Source: Maricaulis alexandrii
GTDB taxonomy: Bacteria > Pseudomonadota > Alphaproteobacteria > Caulobacterales > Maricaulaceae
Length of the DNA: 64,000 nt
Assembly (NCBI RefSeq): GCF_005871165.1
Contig: NZ_SWKP01000007.1
Coordinates: 1 to 64,000, forward strand
Direction of reading: 5' to 3'
Both the position numbers and the translations under genes were made by a program. Below the pieces are notes generated by a model that searched no databases, was not told the origin of the DNA, and saw only the letters and a list, made by a program, of their open reading frames with translations. This document shows, piece after piece, positions 11,217-18,399 of this stretch; position 1 is the stretch's first letter; each line of letters starts with the position of its first letter.

Positions 11217-11834
11217 ATGCCGGCAGCGGCCCGCAAGAAAGACACGGCTCCACGCGCCTGGCAGCGCATGATTTCCGGCCGCCGGCTGGACCTTCTGGAT
11301 CCCTCGCCCTTCGATGTCGAAATCGAGGACATCGCCCACGGACTGGCGCGCGTGGCGCGCTGGAATGGCCAGACCCATGGGGACCACGCCTTCTCCGTGG
11401 CCGAGCATTCCGTCGTCGTGCTGCAGATCCTCGACCATCTCTACCCCAAGCTGGACCCGAAATGGCGGCTCGCCGCCATCCTGCATGACGCCTCCGAATA
11501 TGTGATTGGCGACATGATCAGCCCGTTCAAGGCGGCGTTGGGCGTGAACTACCGCGAATTCGAGGACCGGCTGGAACGCGCCATTCACCTGCGCTACGGC
11601 TTGCCGCCGAAACTGCCGGCCGAGGTGAAACGCAAGATCAAGCGCGCCGACGTGATCTGCGCTTATTTCGAAGCCACGCAGATTGCGGGCTTTACCCGGG
11701 AAGAAGCGTTGAAATTTTTCGGCCGCCCGCCCGCCGACCTGGAGATCGAGATCAGCCCCATGCCGGTCAAGAAGGCGCAGGTCCTGATGCTCGACACGTT
11801 CAACACCGTGCTGGCCGAAGTCGAGGGGCGCTGA
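11217..11834 (+). CDS. HD-domain phosphohydrolase, YfbR-like
   Basis: A 205-residue cytoplasmic protein with the HD metal-dependent hydrolase signature: the first His in RWNGQTHGDHAFSVAEHS, the paired His-Asp in AAILHDASEYVIGD, and a later Asp in KRADVICAYFEA. This arrangement is that of YfbR-like 5'-nucleotidases, which dephosphorylate deoxynucleoside monophosphates. GAGGAAGGGATGAC precedes the ATG. Its stop overlaps the start of the NadQ-type regulator, so the pair is co-transcribed. Nucleotide turnover is a plausible link to NAD metabolism. Confidence 0.82.
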   Translation: MPAAARKKDTAPRAWQRMISGRRLDLLDPSPFDVEIEDIAHGLARVARWNGQTHGDHAFSVAEHSVVVLQILDHLYPKLDPKWRLAAILHDASEYVIGDMISPFKAALGVNYREFEDRLERAIHLRYGLPPKLPAEVKRKIKRADVICAYFEATQIAGFTREEALKFFGRPPADLEIEISPMPVKKAQVLMLDTFNTVLAEVEGR

Positions 11835-12805
11835 TGGAACTGGCCGGCCAGTCCCTTTCTGTCGGCCTCAATGCGGTCATCCTGTCCGTCGACAGCGATA
11901 CGCCCCGCGTCCTGATCGTGCCGCAATCGGGCGGCGGCGTCGCCCTGCCCTTCGGTCCGTTCGACCCGGCCCGCCATCGGACTTTCGAGATCGGCCTTCG
12001 CCGCTGGGTGGCCGAACAGGCCCGCTTCCAGCTGGGCTATGTGGAACAGCTCTACACCTTCGGAGACCGGGGCCGCGAAGCGCCGCTGGCCGCCCTGACC
12101 GGGTCCGAGGATGCCCGCATCATCTCGATCGGCTATCTCGCCCTCACCGCCGACACCGCGACCCCGCCCGATGGCGGCGGACGCTGGCGCGACTGGTATG
12201 ATTTCTTTCCCTGGGAAGACTGGCGCCAGGGCAAACCGGAGGTCATCGACACCGACATCATCCCGCGCCTGTCAGCCTGGGCCGATGAAGCCGGTGTGCC
12301 CGGCCGCCGCGCCTCGCGCCATGACCGCTTGAAGACCACATTCGGCATGGGCGGCGAGACCTGGAATGAGGAACGCGTGCTGGACCGGTATGAGCTGCTC
12401 TATGAAGCCGGCCTGGTCGCGGAAGCCGCCCGGGACGGACAGGTGGACGATCCGACCCTGTGCCCGGCCCTGGGCTTATCCATGGCCTCCGATCACCGGC
12501 GTATACTGGCGACCGCCATTTCCCGGCTGCGCGGCAAGATCAAGTATCGTCCCATTGTCTTTGAACTCATGCCTGACCTCTTCACCCTCTCCGGGCTGCA
12601 ACAGGCTGTCGAAGCCATCATCGGCTATCGCCTGCACAAGCAGAATTTCCGGCGCGCCCTGGACCGGACCGGTTTCGTGGAAGGCACGGGCAAGGTGGAG
12701 AGCCGCACGGGCGGACGCCCTGCTGAACTCTACAGCTATCGCCGCGAGGCCCTGGCCGGCCTGCCCTCCCTGGGCCTGGCCACACCCCGCCTCAAGGAGA
12801 GCTGA
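11834..12805 (+). CDS. nadQ: NadQ/NrtR-type NUDIX-fold repressor of NAD biosynthesis
   Basis: A 323-residue protein with an N-terminal NUDIX-like domain (LNAVILSVDSDTPRVLIVPQ and following) that lacks an intact Nudix catalytic box, and a C-terminal winged-helix domain (from about residue 230; LPDLFTLSGLQQAVEAI region, then GYRLHKQNFRRALDR). This is the architecture of NrtR and the related alphaproteobacterial NadQ, repressors of NAD genes. The nadA-nadB-nadC operon begins 944 bp downstream and has three repeated inverted motifs in its promoter. NadQ is preferred over NrtR because of the nadABC context, but the two cannot be separated firmly by eye. Confidence 0.75.
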   Translation: MELAGQSLSVGLNAVILSVDSDTPRVLIVPQSGGGVALPFGPFDPARHRTFEIGLRRWVAEQARFQLGYVEQLYTFGDRGREAPLAALTGSEDARIISIGYLALTADTATPPDGGGRWRDWYDFFPWEDWRQGKPEVIDTDIIPRLSAWADEAGVPGRRASRHDRLKTTFGMGGETWNEERVLDRYELLYEAGLVAEAARDGQVDDPTLCPALGLSMASDHRRILATAISRLRGKIKYRPIVFELMPDLFTLSGLQQAVEAIIGYRLHKQNFRRALDRTGFVEGTGKVESRTGGRPAELYSYRREALAGLPSLGLATPRLKES

Positions 12806-13235: not shown

Positions 13236-13565
13236 ATGCGTCAGGCATGGGTATTCGAGACGGGCGCCGGTTTTCTGGTCTGCTGCCTCACCGTGCTCGC
13301 CCTGCATTTCATCAGTCTGGAACACTATGCGCTGGGCGCTCCGCTCGTTCTGATCCTTGCGATCAGTTTGTGCGTCATGCCGATGAACCGGCTCACGCGT
13401 GGCCAGCTCCTCATGCCGGCCGCCATCAACAGCGTCATCACCTTTGCGCTCCTGGCCGCCGGGGTCAGCTTCCCGGCCTGTTTCCTGCTGGGGCTCGCCC
13501 TCACCGGTCTCGGTTATGCCCTCTGGAAGCTTCACAGCCGCGGTTTCAAATTCCCCGAAGCCTGA
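13236..13565 (+). CDS. Small integral membrane protein
   Basis: A 109-residue hydrophobic protein with three or four membrane helices (about residues 10-28, 32-48, 60-76, 79-96) and a basic C-terminal tail (LHSRGFKFPEA). No family recognised. It lies between rebB and the NAD operon promoter. The ribosome binding site is weak. Codon use matches the neighbours in this frame, which supports the gene. Confidence 0.55.
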   Translation: MRQAWVFETGAGFLVCCLTVLALHFISLEHYALGAPLVLILAISLCVMPMNRLTRGQLLMPAAINSVITFALLAAGVSFPACFLLGLALTGLGYALWKLHSRGFKFPEA

Positions 13566-13616: not shown

Positions 13617-13645
13617 TTGCTTTGCTCATTGTGAGCATTTATATC
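13617..13645 (+). promoter_or_regulatory. Predicted nadA operon promoter
   Basis: TTGCTT (13617-13622) and TATATC (13640-13645) are separated by exactly 17 bp, a plausible sigma-70 pair. The first inverted repeat (13623-13637) fills the spacer, an ideal repressor position. The expected start site is near 13652, giving a leader of about 97 nt before the nadA ATG. Confidence 0.6.
13623..13637. promoter_or_regulatory. NAD operator site 1
   Basis: TGCTCA-TTG-TGAGCA is a perfect 6+3+6 inverted repeat lying between the predicted -35 and -10 elements of the nadA promoter. Two related sites follow downstream. It is the probable main operator for the NadQ/NrtR-type regulator encoded at 11834-12805. 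Confidence 0.7.
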
Positions 13646-13657
13646 CTTTCCCAGTAA

Positions 13658-13672
13658 AGCTCATTTCGAGCA
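13658..13672. promoter_or_regulatory. NAD operator site 2
   Basis: AGCTCATTTCGAGCA matches the site 1 pattern in 11 of the 12 half-site bases except for A at the first and C at the tenth position. Its start is 35 bp from that of site 1 and it lies near the expected transcription start. Confidence 0.6.
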
Positions 13673-13719
13673 TAAGGGGGCGGCCCAATGACGAGCCGCC
13701 CATTTTCAGATCCCACTAA

Positions 13720-13734
13720 TGCTCATAACGAGCA
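13720..13734. promoter_or_regulatory. NAD operator site 3
   Basis: TGCTCATAACGAGCA repeats the motif again, 62 bp beyond site 2 and 14 bp before the nadA ATG, close to the ribosome binding site (AGGGAGGGG). Binding here could block elongation or loop with site 1. Confidence 0.6.
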
Positions 13735-13748
13735 AAAGGGAGGGGAAA

Positions 13749-14858
13749 ATGGACCGATTGAATTGGGATGGCACGCCTGAAGGCTTAGATCAGGACCGGC
13801 CGGAACTCGCGTACACGGATGAGGTCAAGGCGGCCACGGATCACCTCTATGAGAAGGTGAAGCATGTCGTCACGCCCATGGAGTGGCCGGCCAAGGCGCC
13901 GCTGATCCATGCGATCAACCAGCTCAAGAAAGAGAAAAACGCGGTCATCCTCGCCCACAATTACATGACCGCCGACATCTTCCACTGCGTCGGCGACCTG
14001 ATGGGCGACAGCCTCGCCCTCGCCCGCATGGCGGCAGAGAGCGAAGCCGATATCATCGTCCAGGCCGGCGTCCACTTCATGGCCGAGACCGCCAAGGTGC
14101 TCGCGCCGAACAAAAAAGTCCTGATCCCCGACACGCGCGCCGGCTGTTCGCTGGCAAGCTCGATCACGGGCGAGGATGTCCGCCGCATCAAGGCCGCCTA
14201 TCCCGGCATTCCGGTGGCGACCTATGTGAACACCTCGGCCGATGTGAAAGCGGAATGCGATATCTGCTGCACATCGTCGAACGCCGTCCAGGTCGTCGAG
14301 AGCCTGGGTTCGGACACAGTCATTCTCCTGCCCGACCAGTATCTGGCCAAGAATGTCGCCGCCCAGACCGATGTGAAAATCCTCACCTGGGCCGGCAGTT
14401 GCGAAGTGCATGAGCAATTCACCGCCCAGGACATCCAGGACCTGCGCGACGCCCATCCCGGTGTCGTCATCATCACCCACCCGGAAAGCCCGCTCGACGT
14501 GGTCCAGGCCGCCGACTATGCCGGCTCGACCGCCGCCATGGCTGATTGGGCCAAGAACAGCGGCGCGAAGAAGGCGGTCCTGCTGACCGAATGCTCGATG
14601 AGCGACAATGTCGCCGCCGACGTGCCGGAGATCGAGTTCATCCGCCCGTGCAACCTCTGCCCGCACATGAAGCGGATCACGCTGGAAAACATCTATGACT
14701 GCCTGCGTCTGGAACAGCATGAAGTGACCGTCCCGGACGCCGTCATCGAAGGCGCCCGCGCCTCCGTCCAGGCCATGCTCGACCTGCCCAAGCCGGACAA
14801 GCCCGCCAGCTTTGATCCGACGAAGCAGGAGAAGCCGGTGGACCTGGTGGCGATCTAG
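13749..14858 (+). CDS. nadA: Quinolinate synthase
   Basis: A 369-residue 4Fe-4S enzyme that condenses iminoaspartate with dihydroxyacetone phosphate to quinolinate. The three cluster cysteines correspond to Cys133 (AGCSLAS), Cys218 (AGSCEVHEQF) and one of the pair in CNLCPHMK (301/304). The AHNYMTADI motif near residue 70 is typical. ATG at 13749 follows AGGGAGGGG; an upstream in-frame ATG at 13719 would overlap operator site 3 and lacks support. First gene of the NAD operon. Confidence 0.96.
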   Translation: MDRLNWDGTPEGLDQDRPELAYTDEVKAATDHLYEKVKHVVTPMEWPAKAPLIHAINQLKKEKNAVILAHNYMTADIFHCVGDLMGDSLALARMAAESEADIIVQAGVHFMAETAKVLAPNKKVLIPDTRAGCSLASSITGEDVRRIKAAYPGIPVATYVNTSADVKAECDICCTSSNAVQVVESLGSDTVILLPDQYLAKNVAAQTDVKILTWAGSCEVHEQFTAQDIQDLRDAHPGVVIITHPESPLDVVQAADYAGSTAAMADWAKNSGAKKAVLLTECSMSDNVAADVPEIEFIRPCNLCPHMKRITLENIYDCLRLEQHEVTVPDAVIEGARASVQAMLDLPKPDKPASFDPTKQEKPVDLVAI

Positions 14859-14864
14859 GGGGCC

Positions 14865-15917
14865 ATGGTGACCCGCGCCTTCATCTGGCTCGCCTGCCTG
14901 CTCAGCGCTCTTTGCAGCGCAAGTCTGAAGGCAGAGGCACAAACGACGCTCATGGCAGCCTTGCCTGAATTGGGCATCGAAGAGCATTGCCAATCGCTTG
15001 GCATAGAGGACCAGACCGCGCGATTCTTCCACGTGTCGCTCTTGCCGCCTTCTCAGACGGGAGACACCCAATTGGACTGCGTGCGGGTCCAGATCGGCGG
15101 GCACTTTCGCTGGATTGACGAGGGGGGAGCCGCTTTACACCCAAGTGTTCACTCGGCCTATCTCGCCTCGGATAGAGAGATCATTGCACCTCGTATTTAC
15201 CTTGGAGATTGGCCTGACGGCGCGCCTTCACTTTACCATCTCAATGGCGCGAACGTCGTCGTTGAGGGCGTGATCTTCAATTATTGCCAAGCAATCGAGA
15301 CTGCGATCGAGGCCGGAAATCCACATGCATTTGTGGTCGAGCTCGGTCTGGAAGACTTCCCGGACCCATGTGACGGCTATCCGCTGGATGGTTATCTCCT
15401 TTATGATGTCCGCCTCGTTTCGACAGCCCCGGGGCCGGCACAACGCGTCCGTGGCGAGATCAATCGCGGCGTCCTTGGCAATTTGGCTCGAATAGGTGTC
15501 GACCAGCCTCACTATGATGGCATTGAAACAGCGACCCGCCGTTGGGCAGAGGAGTTAGGTCGGGGCGAGGCGTATTATCTGACAAACCATACGCCTTCCA
15601 TCGACCGCGAGAGCCGCATATTTCTCAGGGATCGTCCCTTCAATATCACCGATTTGTATGGCGATAGCGAAGCACTCCGCACGGCTTCCGGCGTTGCGCT
15701 ATCTTCGCAACCGATTGCAGTTTTCCAGAACGGGGAAGGCGACCCGACAGATAGCGCTTGGGGCCCTGCCGTTTTCGGCTGCATCTGCTTGCAGGATGAA
15801 TGCTCGGAAGTTTGGCCGCTCGACACAATCGACCTGCCCTGGATGCCCGAAGCCTACATCTGCACCGGGCCCTTCCGTTTCAACCGCGAAAACGACAATT
15901 GGGAGCGACATCATTGA
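14865..15917 (+). CDS. Secreted cysteine-containing protein inserted between nadA and nadB
   Basis: A 350-residue exported protein. Residues 1-25 form a Sec signal (FIWLACLLSALCSASLKAEA). The mature part has eight cysteines, suggesting disulphides, and several Trp/Tyr-rich acidic segments (RIYLGDWPDG, GEAYYLTNHTPSI). I recognise no domain. It starts 6 bp after the nadA stop with AGGGGG as binding site and its stop overlaps the nadB TTG start. Its third-position GC is visibly lower than that of nadA and nadB, which suggests later insertion. No link to NAD chemistry is visible. Confidence 0.7.
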   Translation: MVTRAFIWLACLLSALCSASLKAEAQTTLMAALPELGIEEHCQSLGIEDQTARFFHVSLLPPSQTGDTQLDCVRVQIGGHFRWIDEGGAALHPSVHSAYLASDREIIAPRIYLGDWPDGAPSLYHLNGANVVVEGVIFNYCQAIETAIEAGNPHAFVVELGLEDFPDPCDGYPLDGYLLYDVRLVSTAPGPAQRVRGEINRGVLGNLARIGVDQPHYDGIETATRRWAEELGRGEAYYLTNHTPSIDRESRIFLRDRPFNITDLYGDSEALRTASGVALSSQPIAVFQNGEGDPTDSAWGPAVFGCICLQDECSEVWPLDTIDLPWMPEAYICTGPFRFNRENDNWERHH

Positions 15918-17539
15918 CCCGCCCCGTTCTCATCTGTGGTGCCGGCATTGCCGGGCTCTGGGCAGCGCTGAAATTGGCGCCGCGCAAGGTCGTTCTGTTG
16001 ACCGGTTCGCCGCTGGGTGAAGGCGCAGCCTCGGGCTGGGCCCAGGGCGGGGTGGCAGCAGCTCTGGCCGAAGATGACACGCCGGCCCTGCACACGAATG
16101 ACACCCTTACCGCCGGCGCCGGACTGGTGGAGGTCGAAGCGGCCCGGGCGCTGGCCGAAGGGGCTGCCGCCGAGGTCGCGGAACTGGCTGCGCTGGGCGC
16201 CCCCTTCGAGCGCGAGGGCGAGACCTGGTCGCTGTCCCGGGAAGCGGCCCATTCGCGCCACCGGGTGGCCCGGGTCAAGGGCGACGGCGCGGGCGCCGCG
16301 ATCATGGCGACGCTGATCGAAGCGGTGCGTCGGGCGGACCACATCGAGATCCGCGGTGGCTGGAAAGCCGTCTCCCTGCTGGGCGATGCGCAGGCCTGCG
16401 CCGGCGCAATTGCCCTTTCACCCGATGGACGGACAGAGGCGATCAATGCCGACGCCACCATCCTCGCCATGGGCGGGGCCGGCGGCCTGTTCGCCCTGAC
16501 CACGACACCGGCCGGAGCCCAAGGCCAGGCCATGGTGATGGCAGCCCGTCTGGGCGCGACCGTCCAGGATCCGGAATTCGTGCAATTCCACCCGACCGCG
16601 CTCAATGCCGGACTGGATCCTGCGCCGCTGTGCACCGAAGCGCTGCGCGGTGAAGGCGCGACCCTGATCGACCGCACCGGACACCGTTTCATGAAGGCCG
16701 TCCATGCCGACGCCGAACTGGCCCCGCGCGATGTCGTCGCCCGGGCCGTGCACCGGCAGAATGCCACCGGCAAGGGGGCGTATCTTGATTGCCGCACAGC
16801 GATCGGCGACGCTTTTCCGAACGAGTTCCCCGCCGTCTTCGCCGCCTGTCAGAAGGCCGGGATCGATCCGCGCATCGAGCCCATCCCGGTAGCCCCGACG
16901 GCGCACTATCACATGGGCGGCGTGAAGGCCGATGTGGATGGTCGCACGGATGTGCCGGGCCTCTACGCCATCGGCGAATGCGCCTCGACCGGCCTGCACG
17001 GCGCCAACCGTCTGGCCTCCAACTCGCTGGCCGAAGGCTTGGTGAGTGCTGCGCGAGTGGCGCGTTTATTCTCCTCGCCCTTGACGGGCGAGGGGGACCG
17101 CTGCGCAAGCCGCGGGGGAGTGGGTGACCCGTCGAAACTCGGAGCGCGTCGCGCTTCACTCCTTCCGCCTCGCCGCTCAGCGGCGAGCCTCCTTCCCCAT
17201 CAAGGGGAAGGAGAGACCTTGGGTGAACTCCCCCCTCACGCGCTCCAGAGCCTGCGCCAGGCCATGTCCCGGCATTGCGGGGTGGAACGTTCGGAGAGCG
17301 GGCTGACCGCCTTGAAATCCCTGATATGCGACCTGCGCGCCGAGCATGGTGATGCGGATGCCCTGATCGCGGCGGACTTCATTGTCACCGGCGCCCTGAA
17401 CCGTTGCGAAAGCCGCGGCGGCCACTTCCGCACGGATTGCCCGCAGACCGCAACCAAGGCTTTACACACGCGCCTGACCCTCAATGATCTGACGCTCGCC
17501 CAAACGGGGGCACAGCGTTATCAGACCCCGGCCGAATGA
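15914..17539 (+). CDS. nadB: L-aspartate oxidase with an in-frame hairpin-element insertion
   Basis: A 541-residue flavoprotein that oxidises aspartate to iminoaspartate for NadA. The FAD motif GAGIAGLWAAL is at the N-terminus, with GWAQGGVAAAL, GGAGGLF and the SNSLAEGLVSAARVA helix in order. Start is TTG at 15914, overlapping the previous stop; no ATG fits. Residues about 388-438 (SSPLTGEG to HQGEGE) are foreign: the DNA there (17073-17213) is three hairpins, and the segment falls between the FAD/capping part and the C-terminal helical domain, so the enzyme may remain active. The stop overlaps the nadC ATG. Confidence 0.92.
   Translation: MTRPVLICGAGIAGLWAALKLAPRKVVLLTGSPLGEGAASGWAQGGVAAALAEDDTPALHTNDTLTAGAGLVEVEAARALAEGAAAEVAELAALGAPFEREGETWSLSREAAHSRHRVARVKGDGAGAAIMATLIEAVRRADHIEIRGGWKAVSLLGDAQACAGAIALSPDGRTEAINADATILAMGGAGGLFALTTTPAGAQGQAMVMAARLGATVQDPEFVQFHPTALNAGLDPAPLCTEALRGEGATLIDRTGHRFMKAVHADAELAPRDVVARAVHRQNATGKGAYLDCRTAIGDAFPNEFPAVFAACQKAGIDPRIEPIPVAPTAHYHMGGVKADVDGRTDVPGLYAIGECASTGLHGANRLASNSLAEGLVSAARVARLFSSPLTGEGDRCASRGGVGDPSKLGARRASLLPPRRSAASLLPHQGEGETLGELPPHALQSLRQAMSRHCGVERSESGLTALKSLICDLRAEHGDADALIAADFIVTGALNRCESRGGHFRTDCPQTATKALHTRLTLNDLTLAQTGAQRYQTPAE
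17073..17213 (+). repeat. Palindromic element inside nadB
   Basis: Three perfect hairpins follow one another: CCTCGCCC/GGGCGAGG (17073-17093), CTCGCCGCT/AGCGGCGAG (17169-17187) and CTCCTTCCCC/GGGGAAGGAG (17189-17213). The element keeps the reading frame and adds roughly 50 residues to NadB. It resembles interspersed palindromic elements that are usually intergenic, and protein-coding insertions known from Rickettsia palindromic elements. No other copy was seen in this window. Confidence 0.75.
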
Positions 17540-18399
17540 CAGGAACCCCCATGTCCGTGATGCCCCTGCCCCGCCATGTCGTGACCGAGGCGGTCACTCG
17601 CGCCATTGCCGAGGACCAGGGCGGTCGCGGCGATATCACTTCACTGGCGTGCATTCCGGCCAAGGTCGAGGCCAAATTCTATTTCAAGGCCCGCGAGGCC
17701 GGCGTGATCTGCGGCCTGCAGCCGGCGCTGGAAGCCATCTGGCAGTGCGATCCGGAAGCCCTGATCAGCCCGCAAGTCTCCGATGGCGAGCGCGTGGAGC
17801 CGGGCGATGTCCTGATCAGCGTGACCGGTCAGGCCCGCGGCCTGCTGTCGGCCGAGCGGATTGCCCTCAATTTCATGGGCCGGATGAGCGGGGTTGCGAG
17901 CTTCACCCGCACCTATGTCGATGCGGTTGCGGGCACCGGAGTCCGCATCGCTCACACCCGCAAGACCACGCCGGGTTTTCGCGCCTTCGAGCTCCAGGCC
18001 GTGCAGGCGGGCGGCGGCGCGCTGCACCGCTTCGGTCTGGATGACGCCATCCTGATCAAGGACAATCATGTCGCCGTGTGCGGTGGCGTTGCAGAGGCCG
18101 TCCAGGCCGCCCGCCAGAGCGCAGGCCACATGACGCGTATCGCCGTCGAAGTGGACCGGCTGGACCAGCTGGGCGCCGCCATCGAAGCGGGCGCGGAGAG
18201 CGTCTTGCTGGACAATTTCAGCCTGGACGATCTGCGCGCTGCCGTAGACCAGGCCAAGGACAAAGTCATTCTGGAAGCGTCGGGTGGGGTCAATCTGGAC
18301 ACGGTTCGCGGCATTGCCGAGACCGGTGTCGATGTCATTTCGGTCGGGGCGCTGACCCATTCGGCGCCCAATTTCGACATTGGGCTGGATGAACGCTAG
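17536..18399 (+). CDS. nadC: Nicotinate-nucleotide pyrophosphorylase (quinolinate phosphoribosyltransferase)
   Basis: A 287-residue enzyme that converts quinolinate and PRPP to nicotinate mononucleotide. Family features are HTRKTTPGFR, the KDNHV motif, EVDRLDQL and the glycine-rich EASGGVNLDTV region near the C-terminus. The ATG at 17536 overlaps the nadB stop as ATGA; a second ATG at 17551, preceded by AGGA, could be the actual start and would remove five residues. Last enzyme of the NAD operon. Confidence 0.95.
   Translation: MTGTPMSVMPLPRHVVTEAVTRAIAEDQGGRGDITSLACIPAKVEAKFYFKAREAGVICGLQPALEAIWQCDPEALISPQVSDGERVEPGDVLISVTGQARGLLSAERIALNFMGRMSGVASFTRTYVDAVAGTGVRIAHTRKTTPGFRAFELQAVQAGGGALHRFGLDDAILIKDNHVAVCGGVAEAVQAARQSAGHMTRIAVEVDRLDQLGAAIEAGAESVLLDNFSLDDLRAAVDQAKDKVILEASGGVNLDTVRGIAETGVDVISVGALTHSAPNFDIGLDER

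Follow-up and report, generated by a model that had tools for sequence, protein, structure and literature searches.

Why should one palindrome stand three times within 120 bp in front of a single gene? This is the arrangement that precedes nadA in the window, a 64,000-nucleotide stretch of the Maricaulis alexandrii genome, and the first-pass annotation read it as a triple operator of a NUDIX-fold NAD repressor. We find that the regulator and its motif are already known. What appears worth testing is a terminator-like element whose distance to the operator nearest the gene is conserved over much of the class.

The regulator and its probable sites in front of nadA

The features that bear on the question are as follows.

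11834..12805, forward strand: nadQ, Nudix-like NAD-biosynthesis repressor (COG4111), by its PDB 7q91 match and PF21906
12841-13140: RebB-type ('killing trait', PF11747) ORF between nadQ and nadA
13236-13565: small membrane-protein-like ORF between nadQ and the operators
13617..13622, forward strand: -35 element TTGCTT of promoter P1, from sequence and Maricaulis comparison
13623..13637, no strand: O1, predicted NadQ operator in the P1 spacer; TGCTCATTGTGAGCA, an exact palindrome, in 14/14 Maricaulis
13640..13645, forward strand: -10 element TATATC of P1, from sequence and Maricaulis comparison
13658..13672, no strand: O2, predicted NadQ operator just 3' of the probable start and apparently the ancestral distal site; AGCTCATTTCGAGCA
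13678..13701, forward strand: leader hairpin GGGCGGC-N10-GCCGCCC, arms 13678-13684 and 13695-13701, -14.9 kcal/mol
13703..13706, forward strand: T-run TTTT after the hairpin (ATTTT), 13 nt from O3, at a T-enriched position in the family
13720..13734, no strand: O3, predicted NadQ operator beside the ribosome binding site and proposed roadblock; TGCTCATAACGAGCA
13738..13745, forward strand: ribosome binding site GGGAGGGG, from sequence
13749..14858, forward strand: nadA, quinolinate synthase (TIGR00550 and NF006878 above cut-off)
15914..17539, forward strand: nadB, L-aspartate oxidase, likely in the same operon (NF005701 above cut-off)
17536..18399, forward strand: nadC, quinolinate phosphoribosyltransferase, overlapping the nadB end (TIGR00078 above cut-off)

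The open reading frame at 11834-12805 matches the solved NadQ structures (7q91-7q94) over nearly its full length (7q91, E=1.4e-84 over 12-308) and is a COG4111 regulator whose C-terminus is an NrtR-type winged helix (PF21906, NrtR_WHD, residues 242-301). With nadA, nadB and nadC it clusters within 11.8-18.4 kb, as genes of the NadQ regulon do. The annotated repressor identity therefore stands, but the gene is not immediately upstream of the operators, because the two small ORFs listed above intervene. NadQ was predicted in 2016 to regulate NAD biosynthesis through the palindrome ttATRCTCannntGAGYATaa (RegPrecise; PMC5343134), and a later paper, by its title as cited in PMC11452294, describes it as Nudix-like and ATP-responsive. 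Because the window encodes a NadQ orthologue, and because both regulator and palindrome had been predicted by 2016, the Maricaulis case belongs to this described regulon. The transcription unit under its control is probably nadA-ORF-nadB-nadC.

The three sites are where the first-pass annotation had put them. O1, with two further bases (TT), makes up the whole 17-bp spacer of P1 (13623-13639). Three bases separate O3 from GGGAGGGG, and the nadA ATG follows at 13749. Exact matches to TRCTCANNNYGAGYA occur in the 3.35-Mb genome at O1 and O3 only; tested for the operator consensus against TRCTCANNNTGAGYA, O1, O3 and O2 have zero, one and two mismatches, respectively. Outside the cluster about 6 sites with at most two mismatches are found in 64 kb, so that three within 120 bp would arise by chance at about 2e-7 per position. 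O1-O3 are very probably the operators of the NadQ encoded nearby. The best-scoring P1 has TTG in 14/14 Maricaulis, at 17 bp from TATA among the matches listed, and in M. alexandrii would start transcription near 13652.

Several observations concern the surroundings. An operator-like near-match lies elsewhere in the genome (C7:71344), and we found no NAD-gene context there. A second protein of this genome has an NrtR-type DNA-binding domain (G000:C4:302236-302511) with 46% identity to the NadQ C-terminus; its open frame is 247 aa and it is possibly NrtR. The ORF between nadA and nadB (14865-15917) encodes 350 aa with a signal-like N-terminus and has no Pfam or NCBIfam match; weak relatives (~25% identity) follow nadA at three further loci from Maricaulis (L083, L085, L087). 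Finally, nadB contains an in-frame stretch of palindromic repeats (17070-17215, with CTCCTTCCCCATCAAGGGGAAGGAG at 17189), through which its 541-aa product is about 30 residues longer than the 511-codon match in the nearest relative, M. parjimensis (L081).

Operators in relatives

The first-pass annotation proposed that the motif should recur at nadA in relatives that carry the regulator, and it does. We surveyed 80 genomes of the order, counting as a site any match with at most two mismatches within 400 nt of nadA. A site is present in all 71 genomes that have both NadQ and nadA, and in none of the seven that have nadA without NadQ. Across the class the same holds for 37 of 37 NadQ-positive genomes examined and 0 of 3 NadQ-negative genomes with nadA. 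Within the Maricaulis family, leaders from genomes without NadQ are short, lack the sites and have a TATA-like element not far from nadA. In two genomes of this family (G004 and G014) a nadA match was not found, yet a NadQ-like protein, diverged to 34-36% identity, is retained.

The number of operators varies. Elsewhere in the family there are two: the first directly follows P1, the second is closer to the ribosome binding site, and the usual distance between them is 60-65 bp. The P1 spacers of these members are empty of a site. All 14 Maricaulis have O1, O2 and O3, with O2 degraded in one (L089). O1 is a Maricaulis-specific addition to an older pair, O2 and O3; the third operator is a modest variation. 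O1 and O2 keep a nearly constant spacing in the genus (34-37 bp), and O2 and O3 lie 56, 57, 58, 61, 62, 63, 72, 73 or 80 bp apart, with no preferred helical phase.

Outside this order the distal site in many cases overlaps the -10 element and reads TGCTCANNNTAGCAT; the overlap may account for a right half that differs from GAGCA. At class loci L215, L218, L220, L221, L244 and others, TGCTCANNNTAGCAT often follows TTGAC by about 16 bp, and its right half thus apparently serves as the -10 element too.

A hairpin with a T-run in the O2-O3 interval

The first-pass annotation had the operators right and overlooked what lies between them. Between O2 and O3 is a GC-rich hairpin followed directly by a T-run, the sequence pattern of an intrinsic terminator, here with a weak U-tract. 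Given the predicted P1, this stretch would be transcribed as part of the leader. The hairpin at 13678-13701 was not listed by a terminator scan. A loose count of terminators in the 300 nt upstream of nadA did not discriminate (control segments scored 50/127); we therefore used only tests that are specific for position.

In the position-specific test an element was defined as a hairpin of -6 kcal/mol or lower whose eight following bases include at least 4 T and whose end falls 16-22 nt upstream of the proximal operator, and non-redundant leaders were counted in the Maricaulis family (f1) and in four others (f2-f5). It is present in 23/24 leaders of f1, 11/13 of f3, 11/16 of f5, 3/15 of f2 and 4/17 of f4. 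Shuffled sequences yield it at a rate of 0.03-0.08 (3% for f1; 3-6% for f1 and the class-wide set), and other offsets give 0-2 matches. Across the class it occurs in 19 of 27 non-tandem leaders and in none of the ten whose two operators sit 22-29 bp apart. The mean hairpin energy in f1 at 19 nt is -11.4 kcal/mol, versus -0.6 in shuffles, and in the stretch 16-13 nt upstream of the proximal operator the T fraction is 0.7-1.0. As secondary evidence, a covariation count in f1 gives 98.6% paired positions versus at most 69% after shuffling, a figure biased by the fact that hairpins had been chosen for pairing.

The hairpin keeps its place relative to the proximal operator. In 14/14 Maricaulis its 3' base lies 18-19 nt from O3, despite an O2-O3 spacing of 56-80 bp. 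Because this gap is constant while the other varies, the hairpin is tied to O3, and not to O2 or to helical phase, with the qualification that constancy within the genus partly reflects shared descent. Between the T-run and the proximal operator, at 13707-13716 and its equivalents, many genomes also conserve a C-rich block (GATCCC, GGCCCC, GACCCC).

A proposed roadblock on a terminator, its alternatives and its relatives

What would such an arrangement do? The usual view is that repressors work at initiation and that roadblocks need Mfd to clear the stalled polymerase. We consider it a little more likely than not that O1 and O2 block initiation and that NadQ bound at O3 acts as a roadblock, holding the polymerase on an intrinsic terminator. 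By its position, NadQ on O1 and O2 would occlude P1 and early transcription. A polymerase that escaped would transcribe the hairpin and T-run and then meet NadQ on O3, about 70 bp into the transcript. At the stall, to within a few bp, the T-run would lie under the active site with the hairpin just completed behind it, and the polymerase would terminate because the hairpin-O3 distance (18-20 nt) is approximately the one that places the T-run there. With NadQ off its sites (the protein is reported to respond to ATP), polymerase would read through the terminator, which is weak here, with four Us.

In E. coli, LacI bound 3' of a promoter blocks elongation and Mfd usually removes the stalled enzyme; at 30-60 bp from the promoter Mfd seems less effective and readthrough rises, for which sigma that stays on the polymerase and impedes Mfd may be the reason (PMC4132739). 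With a terminator built in, readthrough at such short promoter-roadblock spacings would cease to be a problem.

The fit is not exact. O3 lies downstream of the predicted start, and the geometry suits a roadblock only to within a few bp: a stall 14-15 nt before the operator core would leave 4-5 nt between hairpin and RNA end, versus the ~8 nt of bacterial termination (PMC12366685). A four-U tract makes a weak terminator, the terminator scan passed over this hairpin, and families f2 and f4 mostly lack one; all three count against the model. The wider proposal, that across the class a metabolite-sensing repressor triggers intrinsic termination through a hairpin and T-run set upstream of its operator by the length of a polymerase front, we put forward tentatively, as rather short of an even chance.

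The simplest alternative is plain NadQ repression, in which three operators (elsewhere two) occlude or block the polymerase, while the hairpin has no part in control or does no more than stabilize the mRNA. The NadQ regulon was published on that basis (PMC5343134), and the class members with tandem operators lack the hairpin and presumably still regulate. We nevertheless regard it as unlikely, since hairpin, T-run and their distance to the proximal operator are conserved in many families at a single offset, and NadQ-negative genomes have short leaders devoid of the sites.

Could the hairpin instead be the by-product of a second promoter, P2, with a TTG in the loop, a T-rich spacer and a -10 element touching the proximal operator? 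In f2 and f5 the stretch can indeed be read in this way (TTG as -35, TATATA as -10), scoring 10.1 and 9.2 versus 6.1 and 5.7 in shuffles, with the TTG in 17/18 and 15/16 leaders, respectively. P2 is therefore a serious alternative in those two families by sequence score, and may coexist there with a terminator; it is not one in the Maricaulis family. A promoter has no need of complementary arms, and a TTG occupies the P2 -35 position in 0/31 f1 and 1/16 f3 leaders, yet these have the strongest hairpins. As a general explanation we hold P2 to be a shade less credible still than plain repression.

Attenuation is what a terminator in a 5' leader usually points to, and an attenuator independent of NadQ would place a riboswitch or leader peptide in control of this one. 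We think this very improbable. Only about 26 nt would separate the predicted start from the hairpin, a stretch too short for an aptamer, in which there is neither an ATG nor an evident anti-terminator; this makes either device unlikely, and no Rfam family matched the leader above threshold. Moreover, the site and the long leader are missing where NadQ is missing, and the hairpin distance is tied to the NadQ site.

Cooperative looping between operators can draw on their number, which the first-pass annotation took to suggest cooperative or looping repression, and on the nearly constant O1-O2 spacing, but we rejected it on helical phase (O2-O3 spacings within the genus cover most phases) and give it scarcely any credence, O1 and O2 at 34-35 bp (~3.3 turns) being too close for an easy loop.

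If the roadblock-terminator model is true, repressor binding is converted directly into termination, in the pathway that controls how much NAD is supplied in many Alphaproteobacteria, and the leader amounts to a bacterial equivalent, under regulation, of the Reb1/Pol I terminator. The parts of the proposed device are short and amenable to work in vitro.

How does the locus compare with known systems? It shares with the COG4111 NadQ regulon the regulator, the consensus, the nadABC clustering and nadA as core target. Maricaulis differs in adding a third operator within the promoter spacer, and in this genome we found no credible NadQ site near nadD or nadE; control of these genes, described in Caulobacterales, widens the regulon in certain lineages and is not its defining feature. 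The accessible part of PMC5343134 does not mention a leader terminator of nadA, and we found no report of one in the openly accessible literature. NrtR systems share with NadQ the NAD pathway and a homologous DNA-binding domain, whereas the likeness of the M. alexandrii protein is confined to the C-terminal domain and its score lies far below the NrtR equivalog cut-off (69.9 versus 400 bits).

In roadblock repression (LacI constructs, CodY, CcpA) a repressor 3' of the promoter stops elongating polymerase, as we propose for O3. There Mfd is the main remover of the stalled enzyme, whereas the nadA leader has a hairpin and T-run at the predicted stall point. A LexA roadblock in yeast, cited in PMC12366685, did not support hairpin termination at a distance that requires backtracking, which speaks against our model. 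Another likeness is to the yeast Pol I terminator (Reb1/Nsi1), which has the same order of hairpin, T-rich stretch and bound protein: Pol I is halted by Reb1 15 bp short of the Reb1 site, and the T-rich stretch and RNA hairpin release the polymerase (PMC12366685). Unlike the nadA leader, that terminator is eukaryotic, stands at a gene end and is not controlled by a metabolite, and it needs backtracking, since 20 nt separate its hairpin from the stop.
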